DNA of 64,000 nucleotides from Rhodospirillales bacterium (GTDB lineage: Bacteria > Pseudomonadota > Alphaproteobacteria > TMED109), in NCBI GenBank assembly GCA_028824295.1, contig JAPPED010000018.1:1-64000 (forward strand), read 5' to 3'. The notes below the pieces were generated by a model. The model did no database searches. It was not told the origin of the DNA and saw only the letters and a program-made list of their open reading frames with translations. Position numbers and translations under genes: made by a program. This document shows positions 634-59,534 of the stretch, piece after piece; positions within the stretch are counted from its first letter, which is position 1, and each line of letters opens with the position of its first letter.

Positions 634-3600
634 TTGACGACCGTGGAAGGTCACGACCGCCTGACCGGCCGCGATCCTTCCCGTTCGGCCGTGGCCCGGC
701 TGATCGCCTGGTCGATCGAAAACCCCGTCATCGTGCTGATGCTGGCCGGCGCGCTCGGGGCCGCCGGGTGGCTGGCCATGGAGCGGACCCCGCTCGATGC
801 GATTCCCGACCTCACGGACACCCAGGTCATCATCCGCACCGACTTCCCGGGGCAATCACCGCAGATCGTCGAGGACCTGGTGACGTATCCGCTGTCCACC
901 AATCTGCTCGGCCTGCCGCGCACCAAGGACGTGCGCGGCTCCTCCATGTTCGGCACGAGCTTCGTCTATGTGATCTTCGAGGACGACGTCGACCTCTACT
1001 GGGGCCGGGCCCGGGTGGTCGAGGCCCTCTCCAGGCTGGGGTCGGAGCTGCCCCCCGGGGCCACGCCGCAGATCGGCCCCGACGCAACCGGCGTCGGGTG
1101 GATCTTCCAGTACGCGCTGGTCGACCGAAGCGGCCGGACCGACCTCGCCGAATTGCGTTCGTTGCAGGATTGGTTCCTGAAGCTGGAGCTCGCCGGCGTC
1201 GAAGGCGTGGCAGAGGTCGCGTCGGTCGGCGGGTTCGTGCGCGAGTATCAGGTGCTGATCGATCCCAACCAGCTCCGCGCCCACGACATCTCCATCCGCC
1301 GCATCGTGGCGGCCGTTCGGGCAGCTTCCAGCGAGGTCGGCGGCCGGGTGCTCGAGCAAGGTGAAAGCGAGTTTGTCATTCGGTCCTCGGGCTACGTGAA
1401 GGACCGTTTCGATCTCGAACGGGTGGTCATCCACGCGGAAGACGGCACGCCGGTGACTCTTGCCGACATTGCCCGCATCGTGGAGGGACCGGCGCTTCGC
1501 CGCGGCATCGTCGAACTAGATGGCGAGGGTGAGACGGTTGCCGGAATCGTGATCATGCGTGACGGCGAGAACGCCCTTGACGTGATCAATCGGGTCAAGG
1601 CGAAGCTCGCCGATCTCGAGCGCGGGCTTCCCGACGGCGTGGAAATCGTCACTGTCTATGACCGGGCGCCGCTGATTTCCGGCGCGGTGGAATACCTGGA
1701 ACGCAAACTGCTGGAGGAAGGCCTTGCGGTCGCCATCGTGATCGTCGTCTTCCTCCTGCACTTGCGTGCCGCCTTCGTCGTCATCATCACGCTCCCGCTG
1801 GGCGTGCTGGGCGCATTCCTGATCATGTCCGCGCAGGGCGTGACGGCAAACATCATGTCGCTCGGCGGCATCGCGATCGCCATCGGCGCCATGGTGGACG
1901 CTTCCATCGTGATGGTGGAGAACTACAGCCGCAGGCTCGGGGAGCTGGGTCCGCGACCGGCCCCCGAACAGCGCCGCCGGGTACTGCTTCACGCCGCGCA
2001 GGAAGTCGGGCCGGCGCTGTTCTTCTCGCTGCTCATCATCACGGTGTCGTTCCTGCCGGTATTTGCGCTCACCGGCGAGAGCTACCGCCTGTTTTCTCCG
2101 CTCGCCTACACCAAGACCTACGCGATGGCGTTCGCAGCCATCCTGTCGGTCACGCTCGTGCCCGTACTGATGCACTGGCTGCTCCGCGGCCGAATGGTTC
2201 CGGCGCAGTGGAACCCCCTCAACCGGATTCTGGTTTGGCTCTACCGGCCCTTGCTCTACGTGGCACTCAAGTTGCGGTGGCTCACCGTACTTGTCGCCGT
2301 GGCTCTCACGGCGACCGTGATCGTGCCGCTGAGCAAGCTCGGGTCGGAATTCATGCCCGCCCTCTACGAGGGGGAACTCCTCTATATGCCGACGACCCTG
2401 CCCGGTGTGTCGTCGACCAAGATGCGGGAGATCCTGGGCCAGACCAACCGCGTCATCGCCACGGTGCCCGAGGTCGAGAGCATCTTCGGCAAGGCCGGTC
2501 GCGCCGACACCGCCACCGATCCGGCACCCCTCACCATGATCGAGACCTGGATCCGTCTCAAGCCGGAAGCGGCCTGGCGGCCCGGGATGACGGCGGATGG
2601 AATCATCGAGGATCTGAATTCGCGTCTGCAGATGCCAGGCCTCGTCAACTCCTGGGGCTATCCGATCAAGATTCGCATGGACATGGTCTCGACGGGGGTA
2701 CGCACCCCCATCGGGATCAAGATCACAGGCGATGATCTCGAGACCATCGAACGCATTGCGCGCGAGGTCGAAGCCGTAGTCGCGACCATCCCGGGCACGC
2801 GCTCTGCATTCGCCGACCGAGTGCTCGGCGGCAAGTACCTGGAGATCACGCCCGATCGATCGGAGCTCGCCCGTCGCAACATCGACATCGGTACGTTCCA
2901 GTCGGTGATCCAGACGGCGCTCGGCGGAATGAAGCTCGCGGAAAGCGTCGAGGGGCGCGAGCGTTACGACATCATGCTGCGGTACGATCGGGCGTTTCGC
3001 GAGACCCCTGAAGACCTTGAGGACATCCTGGTTCCCACGCCATCCGGCGCGCACATCCCGCTCGGGGAACTCGCAACGGTCACGTTCACCGAGGGACCGC
3101 CGATGATCCGTTCGGAAAACGCCCGTCTCACCGGCTGGGTGTTCGTCGATATCGCCGGACGTGACCTTGGCGGCTACGTCGCGGAGGCACGGGGGGCCGT
3201 TGCGCAGGCGGTCGACCTTCCCCCGGGGTACGCCGTCGGGTGGTCGGGGCAGTACGAGCAGCTGGAAGCGGCGAACGAGCGGCTGAACGTCGCGATTCCG
3301 TCTGCCGTGGCCCTGATTTTCCTGCTTCTGATGCTGCATTTCGGCCGACTCGACCGGATCCTCATGATCATGCTGTCGCTGCCCTTTGCCCTGATCGGCG
3401 GCCTCTGGGCCGTGTGGCTGGCCGGCTACAACCTGTCGGTGGCCGTCGCGGTGGGTTTCATCGCGCTGGGGGGCATCGCCGTGGAAACCGCGGTGGTCAT
3501 GCTGCTCTACATCGATCAATGGGTGCGAGCGGACAAACCGACCACCAAGGAAGAGCTGTTCCTCGCCATCCGCCTTGGCGCCGCCCTGCGAGTGCGCCCG

Positions 3601-3852
3601 CTCCTCATGACGGTCATCACCGTGCTGGCGGGGCTGGCGCCAATTTTTCTCACAGACGGCCTGGGGTCGGACGTGATGCGGCGAATCGCGCTGCCGATGA
3701 TCGGCGGCACCATCTCCACCATCGTGCTGACCCTGTTCGTCATTCCCGCGATCTACTACCTGTGGGTTGAGCGATCGCTGCCAGCGCACCCCAAGACGGC
3801 CGCCCAAGGCTTCGATGCGCTTCCCGCCAAACCGCAAGGAGACACTGCATGA
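634..3852 (+). CDS. cusA: CusA/CzcA-family heavy-metal RND efflux pump, Cu(I)/Ag(I) type
   Basis: This 1072-residue inner-membrane proton antiporter has the full family length and starts at TTG, 2 bp after the adaptor gene. An N-terminal membrane segment (about residues 28-48) is followed by the porter motif PDLTDTQVIIRTDFPG and a TM4 stretch with GAMVDASIVMVEN, which carries the proton-relay Asp. Met585 (LLYMPTTLPG), Met635 (LTMIETW) and Met684 (RMDMVSTG) all fall 12 positions after E. coli CusA Met573, Met623 and Met672. These three methionines form the Cu(I)/Ag(I) site, so monovalent copper or silver is the likely substrate rather than Co/Zn/Cd. The stop overlaps the next start as ATGA. 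An outer-membrane partner (CusC) is not in the window and may lie upstream. Confidence 0.95.
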   Translation: MTTVEGHDRLTGRDPSRSAVARLIAWSIENPVIVLMLAGALGAAGWLAMERTPLDAIPDLTDTQVIIRTDFPGQSPQIVEDLVTYPLSTNLLGLPRTKDVRGSSMFGTSFVYVIFEDDVDLYWGRARVVEALSRLGSELPPGATPQIGPDATGVGWIFQYALVDRSGRTDLAELRSLQDWFLKLELAGVEGVAEVASVGGFVREYQVLIDPNQLRAHDISIRRIVAAVRAASSEVGGRVLEQGESEFVIRSSGYVKDRFDLERVVIHAEDGTPVTLADIARIVEGPALRRGIVELDGEGETVAGIVIMRDGENALDVINRVKAKLADLERGLPDGVEIVTVYDRAPLISGAVEYLERKLLEEGLAVAIVIVVFLLHLRAAFVVIITLPLGVLGAFLIMSAQGVTANIMSLGGIAIAIGAMVDASIVMVENYSRRLGELGPRPAPEQRRRVLLHAAQEVGPALFFSLLIITVSFLPVFALTGESYRLFSPLAYTKTYAMAFAAILSVTLVPVLMHWLLRGRMVPAQWNPLNRILVWLYRPLLYVALKLRWLTVLVAVALTATVIVPLSKLGSEFMPALYEGELLYMPTTLPGVSSTKMREILGQTNRVIATVPEVESIFGKAGRADTATDPAPLTMIETWIRLKPEAAWRPGMTADGIIEDLNSRLQMPGLVNSWGYPIKIRMDMVSTGVRTPIGIKITGDDLETIERIAREVEAVVATIPGTRSAFADRVLGGKYLEITPDRSELARRNIDIGTFQSVIQTALGGMKLAESVEGRERYDIMLRYDRAFRETPEDLEDILVPTPSGAHIPLGELATVTFTEGPPMIRSENARLTGWVFVDIAGRDLGGYVAEARGAVAQAVDLPPGYAVGWSGQYEQLEAANERLNVAIPSAVALIFLLLMLHFGRLDRILMIMLSLPFALIGGLWAVWLAGYNLSVAVAVGFIALGGIAVETAVVMLLYIDQWVRADKPTTKEELFLAIRLGAALRVRPLLMTVITVLAGLAPIFLTDGLGSDVMRRIALPMIGGTISTIVLTLFVIPAIYYLWVERSLPAHPKTAAQGFDALPAKPQGDTA

Positions 3853-4304
3853 CCCGACTACTGACGACGCTTTCCGTGCTCGCCTTCGTGGCAGCGACCG
3901 CTTCCTCTCTTCAGCCGGCTCGCGCCCAGGAAGGATCTTCCCAGGACAGGGCGGTCGGCTCGGAGACGCTCTACCTCCTCGCCGAGAACCATGAAGCCGG
4001 GCATGCCGACCATGGGAGCGGTGCCGCGGACAGCCGTATCGCACACGGCACGGGCGTCATCCATGCGATCGATTCGGAAAGCCGATCATTGACAATTGAT
4101 CACGAGCCCATCGACGAAATCGGCATGGGCGCCATGACCATGGGCTTCGGCGTGGTGGGCGCCGTCGACCTATCCGGGCTCTCCGAAGGCGACCCCGTTG
4201 CTTTCCAACTCAAGCGAGGCCGGGACAATTCCTACCGCGTCACTGCGATCTGCAACCGCGATACCCACGGCCCCGACTGCCTGGCAGGGAGTTCCGATGA
4301 GTAG
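3849..4304 (+). CDS. cusF: CusF-like periplasmic copper chaperone with Met in place of the metal-capping Trp
   Basis: A 151-residue secreted protein whose ATG overlaps the cusA stop. A signal peptide (about residues 1-26, ending PARAQ) is followed by a His-rich linker (residues 48-66) and a CusF domain from about residue 66 to 135. In E. coli CusF the site is His36, Trp44, Met47 and Met49. Here the equally spaced residues are His85, Met93, Met96 and Met98, so the tryptophan is replaced by methionine. Two cysteines (135 and 144) in the tail are unusual for the family. It probably delivers Cu(I)/Ag(I) to the CusBA pump. Function is supported by domain, spacing of ligands and operon position. 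Confidence 0.85.
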   Translation: MTRLLTTLSVLAFVAATASSLQPARAQEGSSQDRAVGSETLYLLAENHEAGHADHGSGAADSRIAHGTGVIHAIDSESRSLTIDHEPIDEIGMGAMTMGFGVVGAVDLSGLSEGDPVAFQLKRGRDNSYRVTAICNRDTHGPDCLAGSSDE

Positions 4305-4788
4305 TGCCCTGGCCGCCGCTCGCGCGCAGACGCGACCGGGCGTCACCCGGTTCACGTCTCCTCCCGAAACGACGTCACGCCGGGGGGCCTGGCATGCCAT
4401 CCCGTCAGTCTGCGCACTCGTGGCGGCAGTTGTACTGGTGGCCGCACAGGCCAGCGCCGAGTCGTTGGTCGAGCACAGCAACATCGTGGCCGGGGATGTG
4501 CTAGACACGGCTCCCGCTGCCTTCGAAATCCGCTTTGCCCAACGCGTGATGCTTGATCAGGCGAGCCTCCAATTGGATTCAGGCGACATCGTGGAACTCA
4601 CCGTTCCCTCACCCATGACGGAGCGGGCGACGTTCGCGATTCCCCTGCCCGAACTACGCGACGGGGACTACGTGCTCAACTGGCGGATTACGGTACCCGG
4701 GGACCGCGTCACGCATGCTCGAGTCGATTTCATCGTGGTGGGGTACCACGATCATTCCGAGCATGACCATTCCGACCATTCCCACTAA
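4297..4788 (+). CDS. CopC-like periplasmic copper-resistance protein with His-rich tail
   Basis: I chose the ATG at 4297, which overlaps the cusF stop and gives 163 residues. The long N-terminal region before the hydrophobic core (AAVVLVAAQASA, about residues 47-59) could be an extended signal peptide. The mature part resembles the CopC/YcnJ fold: a VAGDVLDTAPAAFEIRF stretch near the start and a final beta strand ending DFIVVG. Canonical CopC binds Cu(II) through the N-terminal His and a later Asp-x-His. Neither is visible here: the mature protein would start ESLVEHSN, and the usual DGH position reads GDR. Instead it ends in a His/Asp/Ser-rich tail (HDHSEHDHSDHSH). It is the last gene of the copper operon. 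Confidence 0.7.
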   Translation: MSSALAAARAQTRPGVTRFTSPPETTSRRGAWHAIPSVCALVAAVVLVAAQASAESLVEHSNIVAGDVLDTAPAAFEIRFAQRVMLDQASLQLDSGDIVELTVPSPMTERATFAIPLPELRDGDYVLNWRITVPGDRVTHARVDFIVVGYHDHSEHDHSDHSH

Positions 4789-4931
4789 CCGTCAAGCGAA
4801 GCCAGCCTGATCAACTGAGCAGCACCTGCGTCGAGGCCAGCGGGTCGCATGCAGGCGGTCCACGCCCCATCCGCACGGGCCGCTTCGACGCAGCCCCGTG
4901 CTCCCAATCCCCGTTCGCGGCCCGTTCACGC

Positions 4932-5720
4932 CTAATAGGCGTACCGCAGAGACACCCGGATGCCATGACCCTGGAGCCTGGCTCTTGTCGGTGCCAGGTC
5001 CAGCACCAGAGGCTCCCTGCTTCCGTCCCGCCAGATCACCCTGCCTTCCCCTCTTTCGGTCTCGAGAAACCCCGCATCCGTGTACCGCCATGCCACGTCC
5101 AGGCTCGCCGTGTCGCCCAGCGGGATCGCCATTCCCGCCGTCAGCATCCAGACCCTGCCGGTCCAGGCACCGCCCGGCACCACGGTCGTGGTCCTCGGGA
5201 ATGTCTGCAGCATTTGCCGCACCACATTCCGACCGGCACCGAAGCCGGCACCGACAAACGGCCGGCCCGACCGCAAATTCCCTATCTGGACCGGCGGCAA
5301 GTCCAGATAGGCGGACATCAGGCCGGACCACGACGAGACCCCTGCCTCCACCGACTGCATGCGACCGGGTGCAAGGAAATTGGCCGTACCCCGGAACGTG
5401 TGGTGCGGTCGATAGTCGACCGAGAGCTCCAGCCGCGCCGTGGAGGTCACGGTCCGACCCCAGCCCACCTCGAACGCCGAGGTGCCTCCGAAGCCGCCGA
5501 CCGTGCTGAGCACGTCTCCGTTCTTGCCCGGGCCACATCCATAGAGCGCAGCGGGGGACTCACTCCGACAATCCGTATCCAGAAACCTCGTGTCGGACAG
5601 TTGGTCCAAGCCCACACCGAGCCGGAAGTACGTATGGTTGTCCGCCGCAGCCGCAGGCATGCCTGCTACTAGAAGCAGGAGAGCGACTGCAAAAACAACG
5701 ATATCTGCGTGCTTCTTCAT
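4932..5720 (-). CDS. Secreted outer-membrane beta-barrel protein, function unknown
   Basis: This 262-residue protein starts with a clear signal peptide (MKKHADIVVFAVALLLLVAG, cleavage near AAAADN). Alternating hydrophobic/polar strands with Gly and aromatic residues follow, ending RVSLRYAY. That pattern fits a small eight-stranded barrel of the OmpA/Opa-like type with a terminal aromatic residue. Two cysteines near residues 51 and 62 may pair in an extracellular loop. It is convergent with the copper operon and not obviously part of it. No catalytic motif is visible. The barrel is inferred from sequence pattern only. Confidence 0.65.
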   Translation of the reverse strand: MKKHADIVVFAVALLLLVAGMPAAAADNHTYFRLGVGLDQLSDTRFLDTDCRSESPAALYGCGPGKNGDVLSTVGGFGGTSAFEVGWGRTVTSTARLELSVDYRPHHTFRGTANFLAPGRMQSVEAGVSSWSGLMSAYLDLPPVQIGNLRSGRPFVGAGFGAGRNVVRQMLQTFPRTTTVVPGGAWTGRVWMLTAGMAIPLGDTASLDVAWRYTDAGFLETERGEGRVIWRDGSREPLVLDLAPTRARLQGHGIRVSLRYAY

Positions 5721-48635: not shown

Positions 48636-49775
48636 CTACGAGGAGCCGTCCTCGGCGAATGCGCGGGGACCGCTGCCGTGCGGGAACAGTCGCGTGACGT
48701 GCCCCATCTTTCGACCGGGCCGGCTGATCTTCTTGCCATAGAGATGCAGGCGGACGCTGCCGTCCCCCAGATAGCGGCTCCAGGCCTCCACGTCGTTCCC
48801 GATCATGTTTTCCATCACTGCATCGTGCAGCCGGTCCACGCTCCCCAGCGGAAGTCCGCAGCACACCCGGACCTGCTGCTCGAACTGACTGGTCTCCGCC
48901 GCATCGATCGTCCAGTGTCCCGAGTTGTGCGGGCGGGGGGCAATTTCGTTGACGACAACGCCGCCGTCCGCCAGCACGAACATCTCCACGGCGAGCACGC
49001 CGACGCAGTCCAGTTCGCGGACCACCGTGCGGGCCGCCGAAACTGCGGCGTCCGCCGTGGCCCGGGAAATCAGCGCCGGCACGATGGACGTCCGAAGAAT
49101 GCCACCGGCATGCCGGTTCTCAGCCGGCTCGTAGGCTGCTTCCTCCCCATCCTGCGAACGGGCAATGATCACCGACACCTCACACGCGAAGTCGATCCAG
49201 CGTTCCAGGACGACTGGTACGTGCCCCAGGCGTTCCCAAGCCGCCGATAGGTCGTGCGCTGACTTGACCCGCACTTGGCCTTTTCCGTCATAGCCTTCTC
49301 GGCGGGTCTTGAGAACCGCCGGAAATCCAACCTCGGTCGCGAGTTGAAGTTCCTCAGGGTTCTCGATTCCGCGGAACGGGGCGACCGGTAGGGCTGCCTT
49401 AGAAAGGAAGTTCTTTTCGGCGAGTCGGTCCTGCGCGATTGCGAGCACGTTGGGGCCCGGACGGACCGCGACCCGTTCGGCAACGACCTTGGCTGCAGCG
49501 AGGGGAACGTTCTCAAATTCGTACGTGACGACCTGAACGGAGTTGGCAAAGCGCTCGAGAGCAGCCTGGTCGGAGAACGAGGCGACGGTGACGGCGGCTG
49601 CGACCTCTCCTGCCGGTGTGTGCTGCTGGTCAGTGAATACGTGCGTGCGATAACCCATGCGGGCGGCAGCCATGGCCATCATCCGGCCGAGCTGCCCGCC
49701 GCCCATGAGGCCGAGGGTTGAACCCGGCGGTCGGTGGAGTTCCGGAACTGAGGAGAAGCGGAGTGGCCGATTCAC
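48636..49775 (-). CDS. purK: N5-carboxyaminoimidazole ribonucleotide synthase
   Basis: An ATP-grasp enzyme of purine synthesis that carboxylates AIR using bicarbonate and ATP. GTG 49775 overlaps the purE stop by 4 bp and gives 379 residues. [14 protein letters not shown] near the start, [10 protein letters not shown] in the ATP-grasp loop, and [13 protein letters not shown] near the C-terminus are diagnostic. It is cotranscribed with purE. Confidence 0.95.
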
Positions 49776-50272
49776 GCCCCGTCGTCCGGCTCGTGCGCCA
49801 CGCTCTCGGTCTGAGTGTTCCGCCAAGCCCGAAGCTTTTCTTCCAGTTCTGCATCGGTGCCGCTGAGGACGGCGACCGCAAGCAGGGCGGCGTTGATGGC
49901 ACCGGCCTTGCCGACGGCCAGTGTCCCGACCGGTATTCCCGCCGGCATCTGGACGATCGAGAGCAGGCTGTCGACACCGTTGCCGAAAGCCGTCGGAATG
50001 GGAACGGCAAACACAGGGACCGTCGTCATCGCCGCCGTCATGCCAGGCAAGTGCGCCGCCCCGCCGGCACCGGCGATCACGACTGCGAGACCGCGGTCAC
50101 GCGCCGTGCGGGCGTATTCATAGAGACGTTCCGGAGTGCGATGCGCGGAAATGATCCGTCGCTCGTGCGGAACGCCGAACTTCTCCAACAGTTCCGCAGC
50201 GTGCTGCAGTATGGGCCAGTCGGACTGGCTGCCCATGATGACCCCGACCTTGGGAAGCTGCCCGCCAGCCAT
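49772..50272 (-). CDS. purE: N5-carboxyaminoimidazole ribonucleotide mutase, class I
   Basis: A 166-residue enzyme that moves the carboxylate of N5-CAIR to C4 in purine synthesis. The active-site blocks [21 protein letters not shown] and [12 protein letters not shown] are intact. Full length and of the bacterial class I type, matching the presence of purK. The ATG is preceded by a GGAG-like sequence. A DUF465 gene lies 77 bp upstream on the same strand. Confidence 0.96.
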
Positions 50273-50349
50273 AGTCCCTCCCTTCTAACCACCGTCTTCC
50301 GGGAGCGTCACGAGCAGCCCCCCCGTGAAGCAGTCAACCGTCAACAACC

Positions 50350-50547
50350 TCAGGCGATGATGTCTGGAGGCGTGCGTTCGAAGGCCGCAATCCGGTCCAT
50401 AACATTGCGTTTTTCTTCCCGCAATCGCCGTATTTCGGCGAAATCGCTGACCGCGCCCCTCGATTGTTCCGAAATTAGGCGATCGAGTTCTTCTGATCGC
50501 TCGCGCAGCGCAGCCAACTCGTCTGCATGATCTGTACTGCTGCTCAT
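50350..50547 (-). CDS. YdcH-family DUF465 small coiled-coil protein
   Basis: A 65-residue protein from ATG 50547, with GGGAG eight bases upstream. It is a charged helical hairpin (ELAALRERSEELDRLISEQ, then FAEIRRLREEKRNVMDRI) typical of the DUF465/YdcH and SlyX-like group. Function is unknown. In alphaproteobacteria such a gene often precedes purE, and here it is on the same strand. It is divergent from pyrD. Confidence 0.75.
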   Translation of the reverse strand: MSSSTDHADELAALRERSEELDRLISEQSRGAVSDFAEIRRLREEKRNVMDRIAAFERTPPDIIA

Positions 50548-50561
50548 ACGCTTCGTCTCCC

Positions 50562-50579
50562 TTTGCAGGGCTCTGCAAA
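50562..50579. promoter_or_regulatory. Inverted repeat in the pyrD/DUF465 divergent region
   Basis: TTTGCAG and CTGCAAA form perfect 7-bp arms around a four-base spacer, 14 bp before the DUF465 start and 127 bp before pyrD. A TATACAAT reading toward DUF465 overlaps its edge, as expected of a promoter under an operator. It could equally form an mRNA hairpin in the DUF465 leader. The regulator is not known. Confidence 0.4.
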
Positions 50580-50706
50580 TTGTATACCAGAGCGTCGGAC
50601 TCCGGTTTGCGATCCCGCCGTGAATTCGTGCTATGCAGGGAAACGTGCCGGGCCCGAGTGCGGTTGAACAGCTGATGGCAGTAATTCGCGGCGGGACAGT
50701 GGAATC

Positions 50707-51798
50707 GTGACGTACATCGAATCGCTGGCTGCACCGTTCCTGCGAGCGCTCGGACCCGAAGCCGCGCACCACCTGGCGCTTCGGGCACTGGAAGCCGGGA
50801 TGGTCAGTGTTGCCGGCGTGGAGCCGGACGCCGTTCTGGCCAACGAGGTTGCCGGAATTTCCTTCCCTTCACCGCTCGGACTGGCCGCCGGCTTCGACAA
50901 GGACGCGCGTGCAGTTCCGGCGCTGGGACGGATCGGGTTCGGACACGTCGAAGTCGGTACCGTCACGCCGAAACCTCAACCCGGCAATCCGCGCCCAAGG
51001 ATATTTCGGTTGCGGGCGCAGGAAGCGATGATTAACCGGCTCGGATTCCCTAGCGAGGGACTGGAAGCGATCACCACGCGCCTTGCCAGGCGCCCAGAAC
51101 GGCTGATTGTTGGCGCCAACGTCGGCTGCAACCGGGTAACGCCAGATCCGATCGCTGACATTGTCGAAGGCATCAATCGATTGGGAGGATTGATCGACTA
51201 CGTCTGCGTCAACGTGTCATCGCCCAACACTCCCGGGCTGCGCGACCTCCAGACCGGATCAGCCCTGGACCAGCTGCTCCGGCGAACCCGCCAGGCCAGA
51301 GATGATGTTGAGGGGAAGACCGGCCGACCGCTCCCGTTGTTCCTGAAGATCGCGCCGGATCTGACCGCACCACAGGTACAAGATCTGGCTGACCGGCTTG
51401 TCCACCAACCGGTGGATGCCCTGGCGGTGTCCAACACCACCGTCGCGCGACCCACGACGCTGACGGGTCGGCACCGAGCAGAGGCTGGTGGCCTAAGCGG
51501 GCCACCCCTGTTCGAATCCTCGACGCGACTGTTAGCGACGCTGCACCAATCGCTTCCCAGATCCATCAGTCTCGTCGGGGTCGGGGGGATTGCCAGCGCC
51601 GCCGACGCCTGGCGGAAGATCGAGGCCGGGGCCAGTCTCGTGCAGCTCTATACGGCCTTCGTTTACCAGGGAACTGAATTGATCAATCGTATCCACAGAG
51701 GATTGGCTGAGTTCGTCAGGGAGTCCGGTTCGCGATCGTTGGCCGCAGCCGTCGGCACCCGCTCGGAAGAGATCAGCGAGACCCAAGCGAATGCCTGA
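50707..51798 (+). CDS. pyrD: Dihydroorotate dehydrogenase, quinone-dependent class 2
   Basis: A membrane-associated FMN enzyme of pyrimidine synthesis; 363 residues from GTG 50707. The N-terminal helices typical of class 2 (SLAAPFLRALGPEAAHHLAL) are present. FMN motifs include GLAAGFDKDA and VGVGGIAS; the catalytic Ser172 is in NVSSPNTPGLR. The stop overlaps the following HAD gene by 8 bp, showing one operon. Confidence 0.96.
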   Translation: MTYIESLAAPFLRALGPEAAHHLALRALEAGMVSVAGVEPDAVLANEVAGISFPSPLGLAAGFDKDARAVPALGRIGFGHVEVGTVTPKPQPGNPRPRIFRLRAQEAMINRLGFPSEGLEAITTRLARRPERLIVGANVGCNRVTPDPIADIVEGINRLGGLIDYVCVNVSSPNTPGLRDLQTGSALDQLLRRTRQARDDVEGKTGRPLPLFLKIAPDLTAPQVQDLADRLVHQPVDALAVSNTTVARPTTLTGRHRAEAGGLSGPPLFESSTRLLATLHQSLPRSISLVGVGGIASAADAWRKIEAGASLVQLYTAFVYQGTELINRIHRGLAEFVRESGSRSLAAAVGTRSEEISETQANA

Positions 51799-52915: not shown

Positions 52916-54682
52916 ATGGCGACTGATACTTCCGAGCTTCAATCCCGCGTTCGCTACGAACCGGATGACCGGCCCCCCGCGTTGCTGGCAGCGGGTCTGG
53001 GACTGCAACTCACCATCCTGACGATTTCCGGGATCGTCATCACGCCGCTGATTGTGATTCAGGCCGCCGGCGGCTCCGACACGTACATGATGTGGGCGGT
53101 CTTCGGGTCCGTGGTGGTCAGCGGAGTCAGCACGATTCTCCAAGCTGTCAGGGTCGGTCGGATCGGCGCTGGCTACGTGCTCTTGATGGGGACCTCCGGG
53201 GCCTTCATCGCCATCTGCATTACCGCCATCGCGGAGGGCGGGCCGGCGATGCTGGCAACGCTGGTCATCATTTCCTCACTCTTCCAGTTTGTACTGGCAA
53301 GGCGGTTGTCGCTGTTCCGCCGGGTGCTGACTCCGACCGTCGCGGGCACCGTCATCATGCTGATTCCGGTGACCGTGATGCCCATCATCTTCGACTTGCT
53401 CGGGCGGGTTCCGGACGGAACGCCAGCCGAGGCAGCGCCGTTGAGTGCGCTTGTCACGCTGCTCGTCATCGTCGGGATCGCCGTCAAGGCGACCGGCGTG
53501 CTCCGACTGTGGGCGCCTGTCATCGGCGTCGTCGCCGGGTCGTTGGTTGGCGGGTACTTCGGGATCTACGACACGGCTAGGATTTCCGAAGCACCGTGGA
53601 TCGGTTTTCCGGACGCCAGCGCGTGGCCCGGCTTTGACCTGAGTTTCGGTCCGACGTTTTGGGCATTGTTGCCGGGTTTCGTCTTCGTGACGCTGATCGG
53701 CGCCATCGAAACCGTCGGCGATTCCGTAGCGATCCAGCGGGTTTCGTGGCGGCGTCCTCGGGCAGTCAACTTCCGTTCGGTCCAGGGGGCCGTCACCGCA
53801 GACGGTGTGGGAAACCTCCTGTCGGGCTGCGTCGGCACGGTTCCGAACACCACGTACTCCTCGAGCGTCTCCGTCACCGAGTTGACGGGCGTCGGCGCAC
53901 GCACGGTCGGCATTGCCGCCGGAACGATATTCCTCGGGCTCGCGTGTTTCCCGAAGTTGCTGTCGCTGATTCTTGCGATCCCGAGTCCCGTCGCCGGCGC
54001 GTACGTCAGCGTCCTGCTTGCCATCCTCTTCGTGGTGGGCATGAAGGTCCTGATACAGGAAGGAATCGACTACCGGAACGGCATGATTGCCGGCGTGTCG
54101 TTCTGGGTCGGGGTCGGCTTCCAGAACGGCATGATCTTTCCCGAAGTCTTCGCGGAGTTTGCGGGCGGTCTGCTGCAAAACGGCATGACAGCCGGAGGGC
54201 TGACGGCACTGCTGCTGACCCTGTTCGTCGAACTCGCCGAACCCCGCCGCTGGCGCATCGAGGTGCCCTTCCAGGTTTCCGTTCTGCCCAAGGTCAGAGA
54301 ATTTCTCCAGGCGTTCGCCACGCGAAGCGGCTGGGGGAAGACGATGATGAACCGTCTCGACAGCGCAAGCGAGGAGACCTTGCTGACGCTGCTCCGGCAG
54401 TATGGCGACGAAGACCCCGGTGGCGACGCTGCACGACGATTGCTGCTGGTCGCGCACAAGGAAAGCGACGAAGCGGTTCTGGAATTCATCGCGTCAACCG
54501 GTGAGGCGAATCTCCAGGATCAGATCGCGCTGCTCAGTGAACGCGCGACCGAAGCCCCCGTCGAGCACGAAGTTTCCCTCAGGCTCTTGCGGCACGTTGC
54601 CTCGTCGGTTCACCACCAGCAGTACCACGACACCGACATCGTGACCGTACGGGTCAAGGTCCCCGCCGAGCCAGAACCCTAG
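52916..54682 (+). CDS. NCS2-family xanthine/uracil permease with RsbW-like C-terminal domain
   Basis: A 588-residue inner-membrane protein. Residues 1-450 form the 14-helix NCS2 nucleobase transporter, with GFVFVTLIGAIETVGDSVAIQ (substrate Glu region) and SGCVGTVPNTTYSSSV (NxxT motif), here cited in short parts. From residue 452 a soluble cytoplasmic domain of about 130 residues follows (LPKVREFLQAFATRSGW, SLRLLRHVASSVHHQQYHDT, VTVRVKV). Its pattern of helices and strands resembles a worn RsbW/anti-sigma-type ATPase domain. That resemblance is my judgement, not a search result. The transported base is unknown, but pyrD and purEK nearby fit salvage of purines or pyrimidines. Confidence 0.85.
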   Translation: MATDTSELQSRVRYEPDDRPPALLAAGLGLQLTILTISGIVITPLIVIQAAGGSDTYMMWAVFGSVVVSGVSTILQAVRVGRIGAGYVLLMGTSGAFIAICITAIAEGGPAMLATLVIISSLFQFVLARRLSLFRRVLTPTVAGTVIMLIPVTVMPIIFDLLGRVPDGTPAEAAPLSALVTLLVIVGIAVKATGVLRLWAPVIGVVAGSLVGGYFGIYDTARISEAPWIGFPDASAWPGFDLSFGPTFWALLPGFVFVTLIGAIETVGDSVAIQRVSWRRPRAVNFRSVQGAVTADGVGNLLSGCVGTVPNTTYSSSVSVTELTGVGARTVGIAAGTIFLGLACFPKLLSLILAIPSPVAGAYVSVLLAILFVVGMKVLIQEGIDYRNGMIAGVSFWVGVGFQNGMIFPEVFAEFAGGLLQNGMTAGGLTALLLTLFVELAEPRRWRIEVPFQVSVLPKVREFLQAFATRSGWGKTMMNRLDSASEETLLTLLRQYGDEDPGGDAARRLLLVAHKESDEAVLEFIASTGEANLQDQIALLSERATEAPVEHEVSLRLLRHVASSVHHQQYHDTDIVTVRVKVPAEPEP

Positions 54683-54744: not shown

Positions 54745-57700
54745 TCAATGGGTGCGGCCATCGATCAGCATGACCAGTGTCGGGAGAACGAACAGGATAA
54801 ACAGCGCCGAGAGCAGCAGCCCACCCAACATGCTCACGACGAACGGCACCAGGAAAATCAATTCGTCGCCCCGTTCGTAGAGCAGCGGCGACAGCCCGAG
54901 CACGGTCGTCAAGCTCGTCAGGAACACGGCCCGGAATCGATGCCGGGCGGCCGCCGATGCGGCCGCAATGGCAGGTAGCATCCGGTTCTCTCGACGCAGC
55001 AGGTTGTATCGATCCATGAGCACCAACGCGTCGTTCACGACAACTCCTGACACGCCGATCATTCCGAAGATGGATATCGCCGTCAGATCCCAGCCCAGAA
55101 TCCAGTGACCGAATACCGCGCCCGCAAATGAGAGAAATATCCCCACCACGGCGACCAGGGGCTTCCAGTAGCTGCGCAGGAACGCGGCCATAAACGCGTA
55201 CATCGCGATCAACACGATGGGAACCAAGACCCCCAGCGTCGTCAGCATCGTTCTTTCGTCCCGGGCGCCGCCTTCGGTTTCGACCTTCAAACCGGGATAT
55301 TTCGCAAGCAGGTCCGGCATGAACTCGGTGTTGACGTGTCGTCGTGCCTGAATCGGCGTGATGACCGAGGGATCGGCTTGCGCGTTCACGACCGCCGCCT
55401 GCTGACCATCGATCCGCTTTAGCGTGCCCAGTTCGCGCGTCTCGGTGAGTCGCGTGACCATCGACAGTGGCATCTCGTCGTTGGTGACCCTGTCGCTCGC
55501 GCCAGCCCGCAGGCCGGGGCCAACCTGGAAGATCCGCTCACGGGCCAGCTCACCCAAGCTCGTTCGGCGCTCCGGCGGATACCTCACCATGACCTTCAGT
55601 TCTTCGTGTCCACGCTGAAGGCGTTGGACTTCGATGCCGTGAAAGTTGGCACGCAGCTGTGCCCCGACCAGAGCAGCGCTCATCCCTGCCGCCTCCGCGG
55701 CCGGCGTCAACTCGACCTCGACGTGCCGCTTGCCAACGGACAGGCTGTCGGACACGCCATAGATGCCTGGAATGGTCGCCAAGTATTCCCGCAACTCCGC
55801 AACCGCTCCTTTCAGCGTTTCCAGGTCTTCGTGCTTAAACGCGTAGGCGACACCCGGCTTGGTGCGCACCCTGGTGGTTTCGTAATCAACCGATTCCAGA
55901 TAGGACGTATCCCCGACGTTGTGGCGCCACAGCTGCGCGATCTCCCACGGGGAAGCCGTGCGAATCGGCCGATCATTGAGATGCAGACGTACCGACGCGA
56001 CGTGACTGCGCGGACGGTCCTCCTTGCCGGCCCTGGACGAGGCCACGTTGCCAACCATCATGCTCACGGCATTGATGGAATCACTACCCAGCTCGTCGTT
56101 GATGCTCTCGGCCGCGCTCACGAACCGCTCAGCGACCGCCAGCGTGCTCTCAAAGGGCGCACCCATCGGAAGCTTGAGATCCGCCTGCACGCTGTTCGTC
56201 ACATTGGCCCGGCTGTCATACATCACGACCCGGACGATTTCTGAACGGACCAGCAAGACCGCAGCGACAATGACCACCAGCCCGCCCGTCAGGGTCAGCC
56301 CAATATTCGTGACCGACCAGGACACGGCCGGAACTACCACACTCTCGCGAAGATTCTCCAGCCAGCCCCGCACAAATTCCTGCACGTCCTTGAGCGGGGA
56401 CAGACTCCAAGGCCGTTCGTGCGCTAGGTGCGCCGGCAGGATCAGGAACGCTTCCGCCAGCGAAACCAGCAAGACAAAGAGTGCGACGTACGGGAATACC
56501 TTCAGAATCTGAAAGTCGCCGGACGTAATGAACGCAAACGGTACCAGTGCCAGCAACGTGGTCACGACACCGACCAGAATCGGGCCGAAAACAGCTTTCG
56601 CGCCACTGATGGCAGCGTCCAATGCGCTCTTGCCGGTCTCCCGCTCAGCGGCGATGCTTTCTCCCACCACGACTGCATCGTCGACAACAATTCCTATGAG
56701 CAGGAAGAACGCGAAGACGGTGCCCATGTTCAGTGTAAGGCCTGCCGGGCCAAAGAAGATCAGCGATCCGATAAATGACAGCGGGATGCCGACAGCAATC
56801 CACGATGCCACCCGCAGGTCAAACACCAGCACCAAACAAATGAACACGAGCAGCGCGCCAATCACCCCGTTCCGGATGATCTCCGTCAGCCGGTCCAACG
56901 CGGGCTTCGCGCTATCGCTCCATACGTCAATGACAACGTCCTCTGGTGTCTGGTAGCTGCCCAGCCACTCCCGGACGTCCTCTGACATCTCGACAATTGA
57001 CTGCTCCTCGGCTGCATCGACGCGGACGAGGACGGCTGGCCAGCCATTGAATCGGGTAACTGTCTGGTCATCGACGAAACCGTCGCGAACCTCAGCAACG
57101 TCACCAAGCCGCAGAATGGTGCCGTCCAGCCGGGTCAGCAGCGGAATATCCTTGAAGTCCTCGCCAACCCTCCGTTTGGCGATGGTATGCAGGATCACCC
57201 CGCCGGCATCGGTGTGGAGTTCGCCAAATGTCACGTTGACCGATTCCCGTTGCACCGCGTTGGCAATTCTGCGAATCGTGAGACGGTTCCGGCGCAACGC
57301 CTCCTCGTGAACCTCGATGGAGATCTCGCGGTCCCGGGTTCCTCGAAGCTCCACTTGCGACACGGTCGGCAATTGCAGTAGCTCGCCACGGACGCTTTCC
57401 GCCGCAACTCTTAGCTCGTCCTCGGTCAGCCGTGACGACGAGACCGCAAGCGTCACGACTTCAAGCGCGACTTCCTGCAGCCTTACTTCCGGCTGCTCCG
57501 CGTTGGCCGGCGGAAAACGCTCGATGCTGTCCACGGCGTTCTGGACATCCAGCAGCGCGGAAGCGGAACGTGCAAACGGAGCAATCTCAATGTCGACGCG
57601 CCCGAGGCCGTGGGTAGCCGTCGTGATGACCCGCTCTACCCCCGACAACCCGAGGATGTTCTCTTCTATTCGCCGGTTGATGTCCTCTTCCACTTCCTGC

Positions 57701-57918
57701 GGAGAAGACCCAGGTGCCGGTACGGTTACCGTGACCATCCGAAGATCCATCTGCGGGAAACGCTGAATGGGAATCTGGGATCCCGAGATGATCCCGCCGA
57801 CGATGAACAGCACCATCAGCAGATTGGCGGCAACCGGGTTACGGGCGAAATAGGCGATCAGTCCCGCTCTCGATGGCGCGCCGGGCTGGGCCGTCGTTGG
57901 GAGATCGGTTGTACTCAT
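54745..57918 (-). CDS. RND multidrug efflux permease (AcrB-like, HAE family)
   Basis: A 1057-residue proton-driven exporter with the usual two sets of membrane helices and two large periplasmic loops. The N-terminal FARNPVAANLLMVLFIVGG and PQMDLRMVTVTVPAPGSSP fit the family. The paired Asp of TM4 is in GIVVDDAVVVGES. TM10 has GVSGVVVNDALVLMD. It belongs to the less-studied AcrB relatives common in proteobacteria rather than the AcrB/MexB core. The adaptor gene lies 12 bp upstream; no outer-membrane channel gene is adjacent. Confidence 0.93.
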   Translation of the reverse strand: MSTTDLPTTAQPGAPSRAGLIAYFARNPVAANLLMVLFIVGGIISGSQIPIQRFPQMDLRMVTVTVPAPGSSPQEVEEDINRRIEENILGLSGVERVITTATHGLGRVDIEIAPFARSASALLDVQNAVDSIERFPPANAEQPEVRLQEVALEVVTLAVSSSRLTEDELRVAAESVRGELLQLPTVSQVELRGTRDREISIEVHEEALRRNRLTIRRIANAVQRESVNVTFGELHTDAGGVILHTIAKRRVGEDFKDIPLLTRLDGTILRLGDVAEVRDGFVDDQTVTRFNGWPAVLVRVDAAEEQSIVEMSEDVREWLGSYQTPEDVVIDVWSDSAKPALDRLTEIIRNGVIGALLVFICLVLVFDLRVASWIAVGIPLSFIGSLIFFGPAGLTLNMGTVFAFFLLIGIVVDDAVVVGESIAAERETGKSALDAAISGAKAVFGPILVGVVTTLLALVPFAFITSGDFQILKVFPYVALFVLLVSLAEAFLILPAHLAHERPWSLSPLKDVQEFVRGWLENLRESVVVPAVSWSVTNIGLTLTGGLVVIVAAVLLVRSEIVRVVMYDSRANVTNSVQADLKLPMGAPFESTLAVAERFVSAAESINDELGSDSINAVSMMVGNVASSRAGKEDRPRSHVASVRLHLNDRPIRTASPWEIAQLWRHNVGDTSYLESVDYETTRVRTKPGVAYAFKHEDLETLKGAVAELREYLATIPGIYGVSDSLSVGKRHVEVELTPAAEAAGMSAALVGAQLRANFHGIEVQRLQRGHEELKVMVRYPPERRTSLGELARERIFQVGPGLRAGASDRVTNDEMPLSMVTRLTETRELGTLKRIDGQQAAVVNAQADPSVITPIQARRHVNTEFMPDLLAKYPGLKVETEGGARDERTMLTTLGVLVPIVLIAMYAFMAAFLRSYWKPLVAVVGIFLSFAGAVFGHWILGWDLTAISIFGMIGVSGVVVNDALVLMDRYNLLRRENRMLPAIAAASAAARHRFRAVFLTSLTTVLGLSPLLYERGDELIFLVPFVVSMLGGLLLSALFILFVLPTLVMLIDGRTH

Positions 57919-57930
57919 GTCGAAGCTCCG

Positions 57931-59052
57931 CTACTCGGACGGCACCGCTTCCGCAATCGTGACCGCCAATCCTTCTCTTGCTTCCGGCAGAATGCCGAAG
58001 ACCACGCCCTCCCCGGCGTCGAACGCCTCCACGACCAGCCCGTTCTCCACGCGGCCCAATGCTGTCGGCGTAAACAACGTCAACTCGCCGTCCCGGACGA
58101 CCCACACGCGGTTCTGCTCCTGAATGGCGGCTTCCGGCAGTGTGTAGACATTCTCGTAGGCGGGACCTTCGATCTCGCCCTCACCAAACGAGCCCGGCAA
58201 GGGCAACGAAGCTACCGTCTGATTCGAGGCAAACCTGAAAAACACGGTAGCCAGACGGCTGCTCGGAGCGACCATCGAGGACACGCGTGTCGCCTCCAAC
58301 CGATGGGTACCCACTTCGGTGCGAACTATCGCGGAACGCCCCTTGAGCGGGCTCAAATACGCGAGGCTGGAGACTTCCATCGGTGCCTCGAACTGCAACG
58401 CGTCGACCCGATACACGGTCCCGATCCTGCCCCCGGGGCCAACGTCGCGATGCGGACCGACGACCTCGCCAACCTCCAATTCGGTACTGATCACTCGACT
58501 CTCGTACGGCAGGGAAATACTCGTTCGTTCAAGTTGGAGACGTGCCAGCTCAAGCCCTGTCTCCGCGCTGGCCAGCTGCGCTTCCGCAAGCGCGACCCGC
58601 AACGCATTTCCCCGGGCCTCCTCGATTTGCAGCCGGACCGCCGCTTCACTGACCGCGTTCCCAGCCGCCTTGACCTGAAGCTCGTATTCGGTTGGATCAA
58701 TCTGAACAAACTTCTCGTCCGCCGGAATCACCCCGCCGTTATTGAAGTTTGGTGATATCCAGCTAACACGCCCGGTGACTTCTGCAACAACGCCCGTCTG
58801 TTCTTCCAGTGTTACTGCCCCGGTCAGCTTTAACTTAATTGACTGGTCTACAGTTTCGGGTTTGACTACCTGTACGACAGGTTTAGCTGCATCAAATGAC
58901 AAATCAGAAGATGTATCGATTTGAACATGACCAGGAGCTCTTGCGAAATACAATGCCACGACAATCGCCGCTAAAATCAGCGCCGCCTGCACGAAGCCAG
59001 GCAACCGAAACCGTCCGGGCTGCCCGGCTTGGCCGTCATTAAGCTGTGCCAT
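57931..59052 (-). CDS. RND efflux periplasmic adaptor (AcrA/HlyD-like)
   Basis: From ATG 59052 the protein has 373 residues. One membrane anchor (LPGFVQAALILAAIVVALYF, about residues 17-36) precedes a lipoyl-type half (GAVTLEEQTGVVAEVTGRV), a helical hairpin (EAAVRLQIEEARGN and AEAQLASAETGLELARLQLE), and the beta-barrel and membrane-proximal parts. It couples the downstream permease to an outer-membrane channel. The anchor is a transmembrane helix rather than a lipoprotein signal. A TTG eight codons upstream is an alternative start. Confidence 0.9.
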   Translation of the reverse strand: MAQLNDGQAGQPGRFRLPGFVQAALILAAIVVALYFARAPGHVQIDTSSDLSFDAAKPVVQVVKPETVDQSIKLKLTGAVTLEEQTGVVAEVTGRVSWISPNFNNGGVIPADEKFVQIDPTEYELQVKAAGNAVSEAAVRLQIEEARGNALRVALAEAQLASAETGLELARLQLERTSISLPYESRVISTELEVGEVVGPHRDVGPGGRIGTVYRVDALQFEAPMEVSSLAYLSPLKGRSAIVRTEVGTHRLEATRVSSMVAPSSRLATVFFRFASNQTVASLPLPGSFGEGEIEGPAYENVYTLPEAAIQEQNRVWVVRDGELTLFTPTALGRVENGLVVEAFDAGEGVVFGILPEAREGLAVTIAEAVPSE

Positions 59053-59534
59053 CTTGATTTCCGATTGCTGATACAAGTTCCCCGGTGCAAGGGACGAAGA
59101 ACTAGAGGCCAGGTATCAAGGAACCACGCCGTACTGCATCCGCTCCCGGATTTGATGAGCCTCTTTCCATCCTCACAACGGTGCCAGTAATCCGCAAAAT
59201 ACACCTCGTAACCGTACGTGTCCACACGCCTCAATGCCAATTATCCGTAACTTGCATCTGCTCTTTACTCTGACTTGACGTTTGTCAAGCTTGCTAGCAA
59301 CTCCATCTTAGGGCGGCAGACTGATTCCGCCACAAATCTTTGCCGTAGCACGCCAGTCAAACCAGCTCTGCAAGCGACTTGTCGGCCAATGTCCTTACCG
59401 ACCTTGTCGCAGATACGTGATACTTCACCTGATAACCATTCACTTACGTATCAATAGGACCTATGGCGCAAACCAGGTGCGTCCCCAGCTATGCATTCTC
59501 GTTCTATATTATTGTTACAACATTCATGAGCTGC
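59053..59534. other. AT-richer intergenic region upstream of the RND operon, with a small palindrome
   Basis: About 480 bp that are less GC-rich than the genes around them and hold no convincing gene. CTTGAC-GTTT-GTCAAG at 59274-59289 is a perfect inverted repeat; on the minus strand it contains TTGACA with TAAAGA 15 bp later, a possible promoter for the efflux operon with an overlapping operator. The spacing is short, so this is tentative. Confidence 0.35.

Follow-up and report, generated by a model that had tools for sequence, protein, structure and literature searches.

A divergent NCS2/SLC23-fold permease with a degenerate RsbW-like domain that may act as a built-in transporter regulator

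Within a stretch of 64,000 nucleotides from a Rhodospirillales bacterium (contig JAPPED010000018.1, positions 1 to 64,000; referred to here as the window), one gene encodes a membrane transporter of the NCS2/SLC23 fold that carries at its C-terminus a soluble domain with the predicted fold of RsbW, an anti-sigma kinase, from which the motifs for ATP have been lost. This dead RsbW domain may represent a novel type of regulator built into a transporter. The open reading frame begins with ATG and gives a product of 588 aa, and the features discussed below are located in Table 1. In the open-licence literature, as covered by titles and the first parts of abstracts, no report was found in which an NCS2 permease carries an RsbW-like domain.

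Table 1. Features of the permease gene and its product, with the positions of the two further copies in the same genome.
Feature	Position	Strand	Basis
Whole permease of the NCS2/SLC23 fold, ending in a pseudo-RsbW domain, 588 aa	52916..54682	+	ORF, PF00860, Foldseek
Transmembrane part, residues 1-441	52916..54238	+	full-length AlphaFold model
TM1 Gln31-Leu32, Gln of Gln-His motif kept, His replaced	53006..53011	+	column counts, 91 rows
TM8 motif E265-T-V-G-D269, kept	53708..53722	+	column counts; alignment to UapA
TM10 site of NAT signature [QEP]NxGxxxxT[GRK], here SSVSVTELTG	53861..53890	+	alignment to UapA; column counts
Soluble C-terminal domain, RsbW/SpoIIAB fold (predicted), residues 444-588	54245..54679	+	AlphaFold model, PDB structure matches, relatives' PF13581 matches
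Remnant of the N-box helix (residues 480-492), with T491 in place of the Asn and no variation at R480, E486, E487	54353..54391	+	
Remnant of the G1 strand (residues 520-527), with A526 in place of the G1 Asp	54473..54496	+	alignment to RsbW of L179
N532-L-Q-D535; neither N nor D varies across the 91 rows	54509..54520	+	
Vestigial G2 region and next helix, residues 552-560; L555, R556, L558 invariant	54569..54595	+	column counts
HHQQYHD motif of the family (residues 566-572), next to the last two strands; no variation at H567 and Y570 (91 rows)	54611..54631	+	
Further permease copy in the window genome (L013)	G000:C21:92508-94220		
Further permease copy in the window genome (L019)	G000:C1:39572-41281		

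A full-length AlphaFold model of the permease (58 rows, pLDDT 83.4) places the last membrane helix at residues 423-441 and the soluble domain from a strand at residues 446-451 to the C-terminus. The original prediction had described a soluble tail after the last membrane helix, which the model confirms, and had started it at residue 452 (54269-54682, or residues 452-588 and the stop codon); the domain begins slightly before this, at about residue 444 (54245), and a start at 452 cuts the first domain strand because this strand occupies residues 446-451. The stretch quoted in that prediction, EVSLRLLRHVASSVHHQQYHD, corresponds to residues 552-572. Modelled by itself, the domain (77 rows, pLDDT 80.0, pTM 0.77) has the order strand-helix-helix-strand-strand-helix-helix-strand-strand, with pLDDT below 50 around the G2 box (residues 543-552 of the protein, 100-109 of the model; residues 541-557 in the full-length model). 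Comparison of the domain model with PDB structures gave 429 matches at E ≤ 10, and the 15 at E ≤ 0.001 are all RsbW, UsfX or SpoIIAB. With VIA-align the top match was RsbW 6m37_C (Z 14.6, rmsd 2.5, 114 aligned), followed by UsfX (Z 13.9), SpoIIAB (12.5), SiaB (10.9), and LvrC (10.4). Histidine kinases and other GHKL proteins scored Z 7.3 and below; as candidates (Z 6-7) they were taken to represent the wider superfamily and no better match. An identity of the tail as STAS was rejected on the predicted fold, the matches of the domain being of the RsbW type.

The family assignment can be followed in the sequences of relatives. Among 91 aligned members, 49 match PF13581 (HATPase_c_2) at E ≤ 1, the best at 4e-7. 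When ten members were scanned singly, three of them (L042, L044, and L060) passed the cut-off of 27.4, with scores among them of 30.5, 30.0, and 28.0 bits, and covered profile positions 2 to 117-122 of 127; L064, L080, and L084 matched below the cut-off and four had no match. A PF13581 scan of 20 whole genomes also hit the tails of four permeases, none of which reached the cut-off; the best of them, at G465:C2:86239-86583, scored 24.6 bits. The domain of the window permease has no PF13581 match of its own at E ≤ 1, eight full-length relatives have none at E ≤ 0.1, and Pfam and NCBIfam searches with the window permease found no C-terminal family. No RsbW came up in sequence searches of the PDB, whether the query was the isolated domain or the profile of 91 rows. 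An hhalign comparison with the intact RsbW of the window's own genus, represented by two nearly identical rows, gave a weak match (probability 1.7%, E 0.029) with 68 columns in register. The predicted structure and the PF13581 matches in relatives nevertheless support the original suggestion of a degenerate, anti-sigma-type GHKL ATPase, and the fold search that it recommended returned an RsbW-like fold rather than an unrelated one.

The loss of the ATP site was read from an alignment of 91 distinct proteins, the window's included, drawn from two sources: the 80 best among 114 confirmed stretches that a full-length query had found, and the loci from the search of the window's own family. Loci L008-L011 were left out of this alignment, and the tail of L008, similar by eye but without a match to the domain profile, was not counted. 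The register of the N-box was taken from an hhalign alignment to the RsbW of the window genome, which has a weak score, and from an hmmsearch alignment to the RsbW of L179, and the G2 box was placed by eye against the intact RsbW of the window genome. The N-box Glu is E487 and is invariant, and position 491 of the N-box Asn holds T in 76 rows, S in 5, I in 4, L in 4, and A in 2. The G1 Asp position, 526, is A in 76 rows, V in 13, S in 1, and T in 1, and no row has a Gly at 551-555, the G2 box in its by-eye placement. Thus all 91 rows lack the residues that mark an active RsbW/SpoIIAB kinase, an enzyme that binds a sigma factor and phosphorylates a STAS protein: the Asn of the N-box, the Asp of G1, and the glycines of G2. 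The N-box Asn is also missing in the more distant members L103, L170, and L186, the first of which has a single Gly in the G2 stretch, at 554, and no permease tail with intact ATP motifs was seen among the tails inspected. From these alignments we infer that the loss of the motifs is old and that the remaining surface has been kept by selection. Elsewhere the window genome encodes an RsbW with ATP motifs (L106, PF13581, 65.2 bits), after which comes a STAS gene (PF01740, 49.3 bits). The original prediction had further proposed that the domain could sense nucleotides; in its ordinary form this is disfavoured because the three ATP motifs have been lost, and ordinary sensing of ATP was rejected on the same ground.

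The domain was found in all 91 distinct proteins aligned, and the absence from close homologues that had been named as evidence against the original prediction did not occur. Thirteen positions are invariant across the 91 rows (F463, R480, E486, E487, E523, N532, D535, L555, R556, L558, V565, H567, and Y570), ten of which remain so in the 77-row set with the distant L103 added, and the sequence HQQY or HEQF is retained in L103, L170, and L186. Values of dN/dS for the domain lie between 0.07 and 0.17 against seven relatives, with dS above 1.9, and so saturated, in the two Dadabacteria comparisons. These sequence comparisons indicate that the domain is under purifying selection, and this together with the conservation rules out the tail as a chance open frame.

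The membrane part is related to known nucleobase transporters and departs from them in TM1 and TM10. PF00860 (Xan_ur_permease) matches residues 28-402 (E 9.7e-49, 166.5 bits, cut-off 27), and Foldseek with the full-length model lists UapA (E 5.6e-17), UraA, and SVCT1 first and then SLC26 chains; the PF00860 match and the UraA/UapA fold place the protein in the broad NCS2/NAT family. The NCBIfam models ncs2 and pbuX also match, but neither reaches its cut-off (176.9 bits where 291.8 are required for ncs2, 203.7 where 414.2 are required for pbuX). The canonical NAT motif in TM1 is Gln-His, as defined in PMC5972032. In all 91 rows position 31 is Q, and the canonical His is absent from position 32 (L63, Y10, F8, I6, M2, Q2). 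The canonical E-x-x-G-D motif of TM8 is present in the window permease as E265-TVG-D269, where E265 aligns with the Glu of UapA 'acEcigd'; across the 91 rows, position 265 is E75, D11, R3, Q2 and position 269 is D86, S3, G2. By contrast, the canonical TM10 signature is absent: none of the 91 rows has Q, E or P at 316 (T58, S22, N5, I3, L2, V1), N at 317 (S81, G9, A1) or G at 319 (S61, A30), and T324 and G325 of this site are retained in every row. The permease is therefore non-canonical and, in the preferred reading, a divergent NCS2/SLC23 elevator transporter; divergent prokaryotic NAT branches of unknown function are mentioned in PMC5972032. Because the TM10 substrate motif is replaced, binding of the transported compound is probably unlike that of xanthine or uracil. 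The three copies in the window genome differ at the TM8 substrate position: the window copy has E there, L013 has Q, and L019 has D. Judged by the altered motifs and these residues, the substrates may be other than the usual xanthine or uracil, and each copy perhaps has its own.

The permease occurs in several phyla, in metagenome-assembled genomes (MAGs) of which many come from sponges. Copies at least 50% identical are present in all 7 genomes of the window's genus and in 0 of 21 others of its family. Each of the genome counts includes the genome that seeded it. With at most ten candidates scored per genome, matches to the domain profile were found in 2 of 398 genomes of the window's phylum, including the window's own, and in 3 of 369 genomes of the class of G456. 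Copies were found in 12 of 57 genomes of the phylum of Dadabacteria genome G454 (one a short fragment), in 13 of 16 of the phylum of Latescibacterota genome G464 (one weak), and in 4 of 12 of the family of G371. A set of 19 genomes chosen for having the permease contains 44 matches, one to four per genome, two of which are short fragments. In a quick tree, made without an AU test and with long-branch warnings, seven Dadabacteria proteins form the sister group of the window clade (SH-aLRT 100), and rows from Latescibacterota and Gemmatimonadota are intermingled. The permeases of the window and of a Dadabacteria locus (L036) are 78% identical, in comparison with 34% for their dihydroorotate dehydrogenases, which are a single control gene and may not be an ortholog pair; this difference suggests that the permease moved horizontally between phyla. 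Tandem permease pairs occur in Latescibacterota, as in one MAG (L181:4609-10061, G464:C140) where phytanoyl-CoA dioxygenase-like genes, named by eye, lie on both sides of the pair; two PhyH proteins are among the neighbour proteins scanned with Pfam. Habitat was read from record tags, and tags of two sponge MAG studies are found on 41 of the best 80 of 114 loci; the other 39 of these 80 are probably mostly sponge MAGs as well. The tag jk18x belongs to Caribbean Ircinia MAGs, according to PMC9531527, and RHO, COS, IRC, CAR, and APA were deduced from the host list in PMC8163846. The altered substrate motif, the one to four copies per genome, and the spread over several phyla with many sponge MAGs point to a transported compound that may matter in the sponge.

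Comparison with known systems helps to define what is unusual in this protein. Like RsbW, SpoIIAB, and UsfX (PF13581), the domain has the same fold and order of strands and helices over nearly its whole length and keeps the N-box Glu; unlike them it has lost the ATP motifs, is fused to a transporter rather than free, and has no known sigma factor or STAS partner. With UapA, UraA, and SVCT1 the permease shares the membrane fold and the TM8 motif, whereas it lacks the TM10 signature and the TM1 His and has an extra C-terminal domain. STAS is the C-terminal domain of SLC26/SulP transporters and the natural partner of RsbW. SLC26 transporters share the membrane fold of seven plus seven helices, as PMC11362169 describes. 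They resemble the permease in both a related transmembrane fold and a C-terminal soluble module of the partner-switching type. They differ in that the module here is the RsbW side and not STAS, and in that the membrane part is closer to NCS2/SLC23 proteins by Foldseek. SLC26 proteins carry the STAS side of an RsbV/RsbW-type switch, and the transporters of related fold described here carry a dead RsbW side.

By analogy with STAS in SLC26, we consider that the chances are about even that transport by this elevator protein is regulated by its dead RsbW module, which is probably dimeric. The domain would be suspended from the last helix, and in this transporter fold the last helix is part of the scaffold half, through which dimers form. 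RsbW-type proteins are dimers. Given this and the attachment to a scaffold helix, two copies of the domain would be expected to pair in the cytoplasm beneath the transporter dimer. The pair could then regulate the elevator movement by contact, through the conserved hairpin and a helix face, and this would proceed without ATP hydrolysis or classical ATP binding. If true, it would be an independent, testable case of elevator transporters gaining cytoplasmic regulators, and a case of anti-sigma kinases turning into pseudo-enzymes.

Different models can be proposed for what the domain does. It may dock a STAS protein (RsbV-like) encoded elsewhere, tying transport or signalling to the Rsb network with the transporter possibly serving as a receptor, and this would be compatible with the presence of STAS domains in 20 of 20 genomes searched, in each of which at least one PF13581 match exceeds 60 bits. 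The original prediction had suggested looking for a co-conserved anti-anti-sigma or STAS gene, and rsbW or STAS neighbours do exist in three separate lineages: at L178 (Nitrospira), where one copy and an rsbW having ATP motifs are arranged tail to tail, with STAS and response-regulator-like genes beyond; at L179 (Nitrospinae, the same place as L057), where an rsbW with ATP motifs is about 3 kb from the permease; and at near relatives of the window gene, where a STAS gene comes directly after the permease (L026, L028) or after one ORF (L029). Most loci have no such neighbour, however. Small HMMs, built from 3 RsbW and 2 STAS sequences and applied to flanks that are short at some loci, detected RsbW or STAS in 4 of the best 80 loci, and in 20 genomes with 47 copies (two of them fragments) a strong RsbW match or a STAS match lies no more than 3 kb from just 2 of the copies. 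This exceeds the roughly estimated 0.2-0.35 copies expected by chance, in a comparison that was not planned beforehand. In the searches made the window copy has no RsbW or STAS gene nearby. A generally co-conserved STAS gene was accordingly rejected after the flank and whole-genome searches, and no general partner gene for the permease was found among the loci and genomes searched. We rate docking of this kind as unlikely.

In another model the old ATP pocket has been remade to take a different small ligand, such as the substrate itself, a purine or a second messenger, whose binding would switch transport. In keeping with this, R480, E486, E487, E523, N532, D535, R556, H567, and Y570 are polar and invariant in 91 rows, E487 occupying the position of the N-box Glu; however, the Asn, the Asp, and the glycines with which GHKL proteins hold Mg and ATP have been lost, and such a sensor seems unlikely. 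The domain may instead be a structural scaffold only, stabilizing the transporter dimer or its folding without a switching role. It is less conserved than the membrane part, with identities of 65-82% against 82-93% in seven comparisons, as a scaffold might be, but the 13 positions invariant in 91 rows from several phyla and the dN/dS of 0.07-0.17 suggest a specific surface, and we think a purely structural role improbable. A wider form of partner switching also appears improbable to us: the permease would be the membrane arm of a network in which its dead domain and soluble RsbW compete for a STAS protein, so that uptake of a compound specific to the symbiosis resets sigma-factor or second-messenger signalling, and the device would have spread by transfer among symbionts of several phyla.

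Of 236 neighbour clusters of at least 130 aa within 2.5 kb, 106 were scanned with Pfam, and among the first 25 of 121 families listed none was shared by more than 3 of the scanned clusters; single STAS or RsbW matches could lie among the other families. Besides the permease, the commonest neighbour cluster is a dihydroorotate dehydrogenase, present at 11 of the best 80 loci in two lineages. The Nitrospira MAG locus (L178:2-5017, G460:C53:8500-15500) has a second permease copy at 3281-5017 (−), the rsbW-like gene with ATP motifs at 2862-3278 (+), and the STAS gene at 2082-2459 (−); the response-regulator-like gene and a periplasmic-binding-protein-like gene, both beyond rsbW, were named by eye. 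On the 3' side of the permease in L028 (7049-11763), and also in L026 and L029, genes on the same strand are STAS, GPP34-like, ammonium-transporter-like, a second STAS, and glutamine-synthetase-like, named by eye except for STAS and preceded in L029 by the extra ORF. In the window, the region upstream of the permease (48636-51798) contains purK-like and purE-like genes (−), named by eye, and a dihydroorotate dehydrogenase gene (+), identified by the Pfam DHO_dh match in relative L027. Directly downstream (54745-59076, −) lie genes for an RND-type efflux transporter and a membrane-fusion protein, again named by eye.
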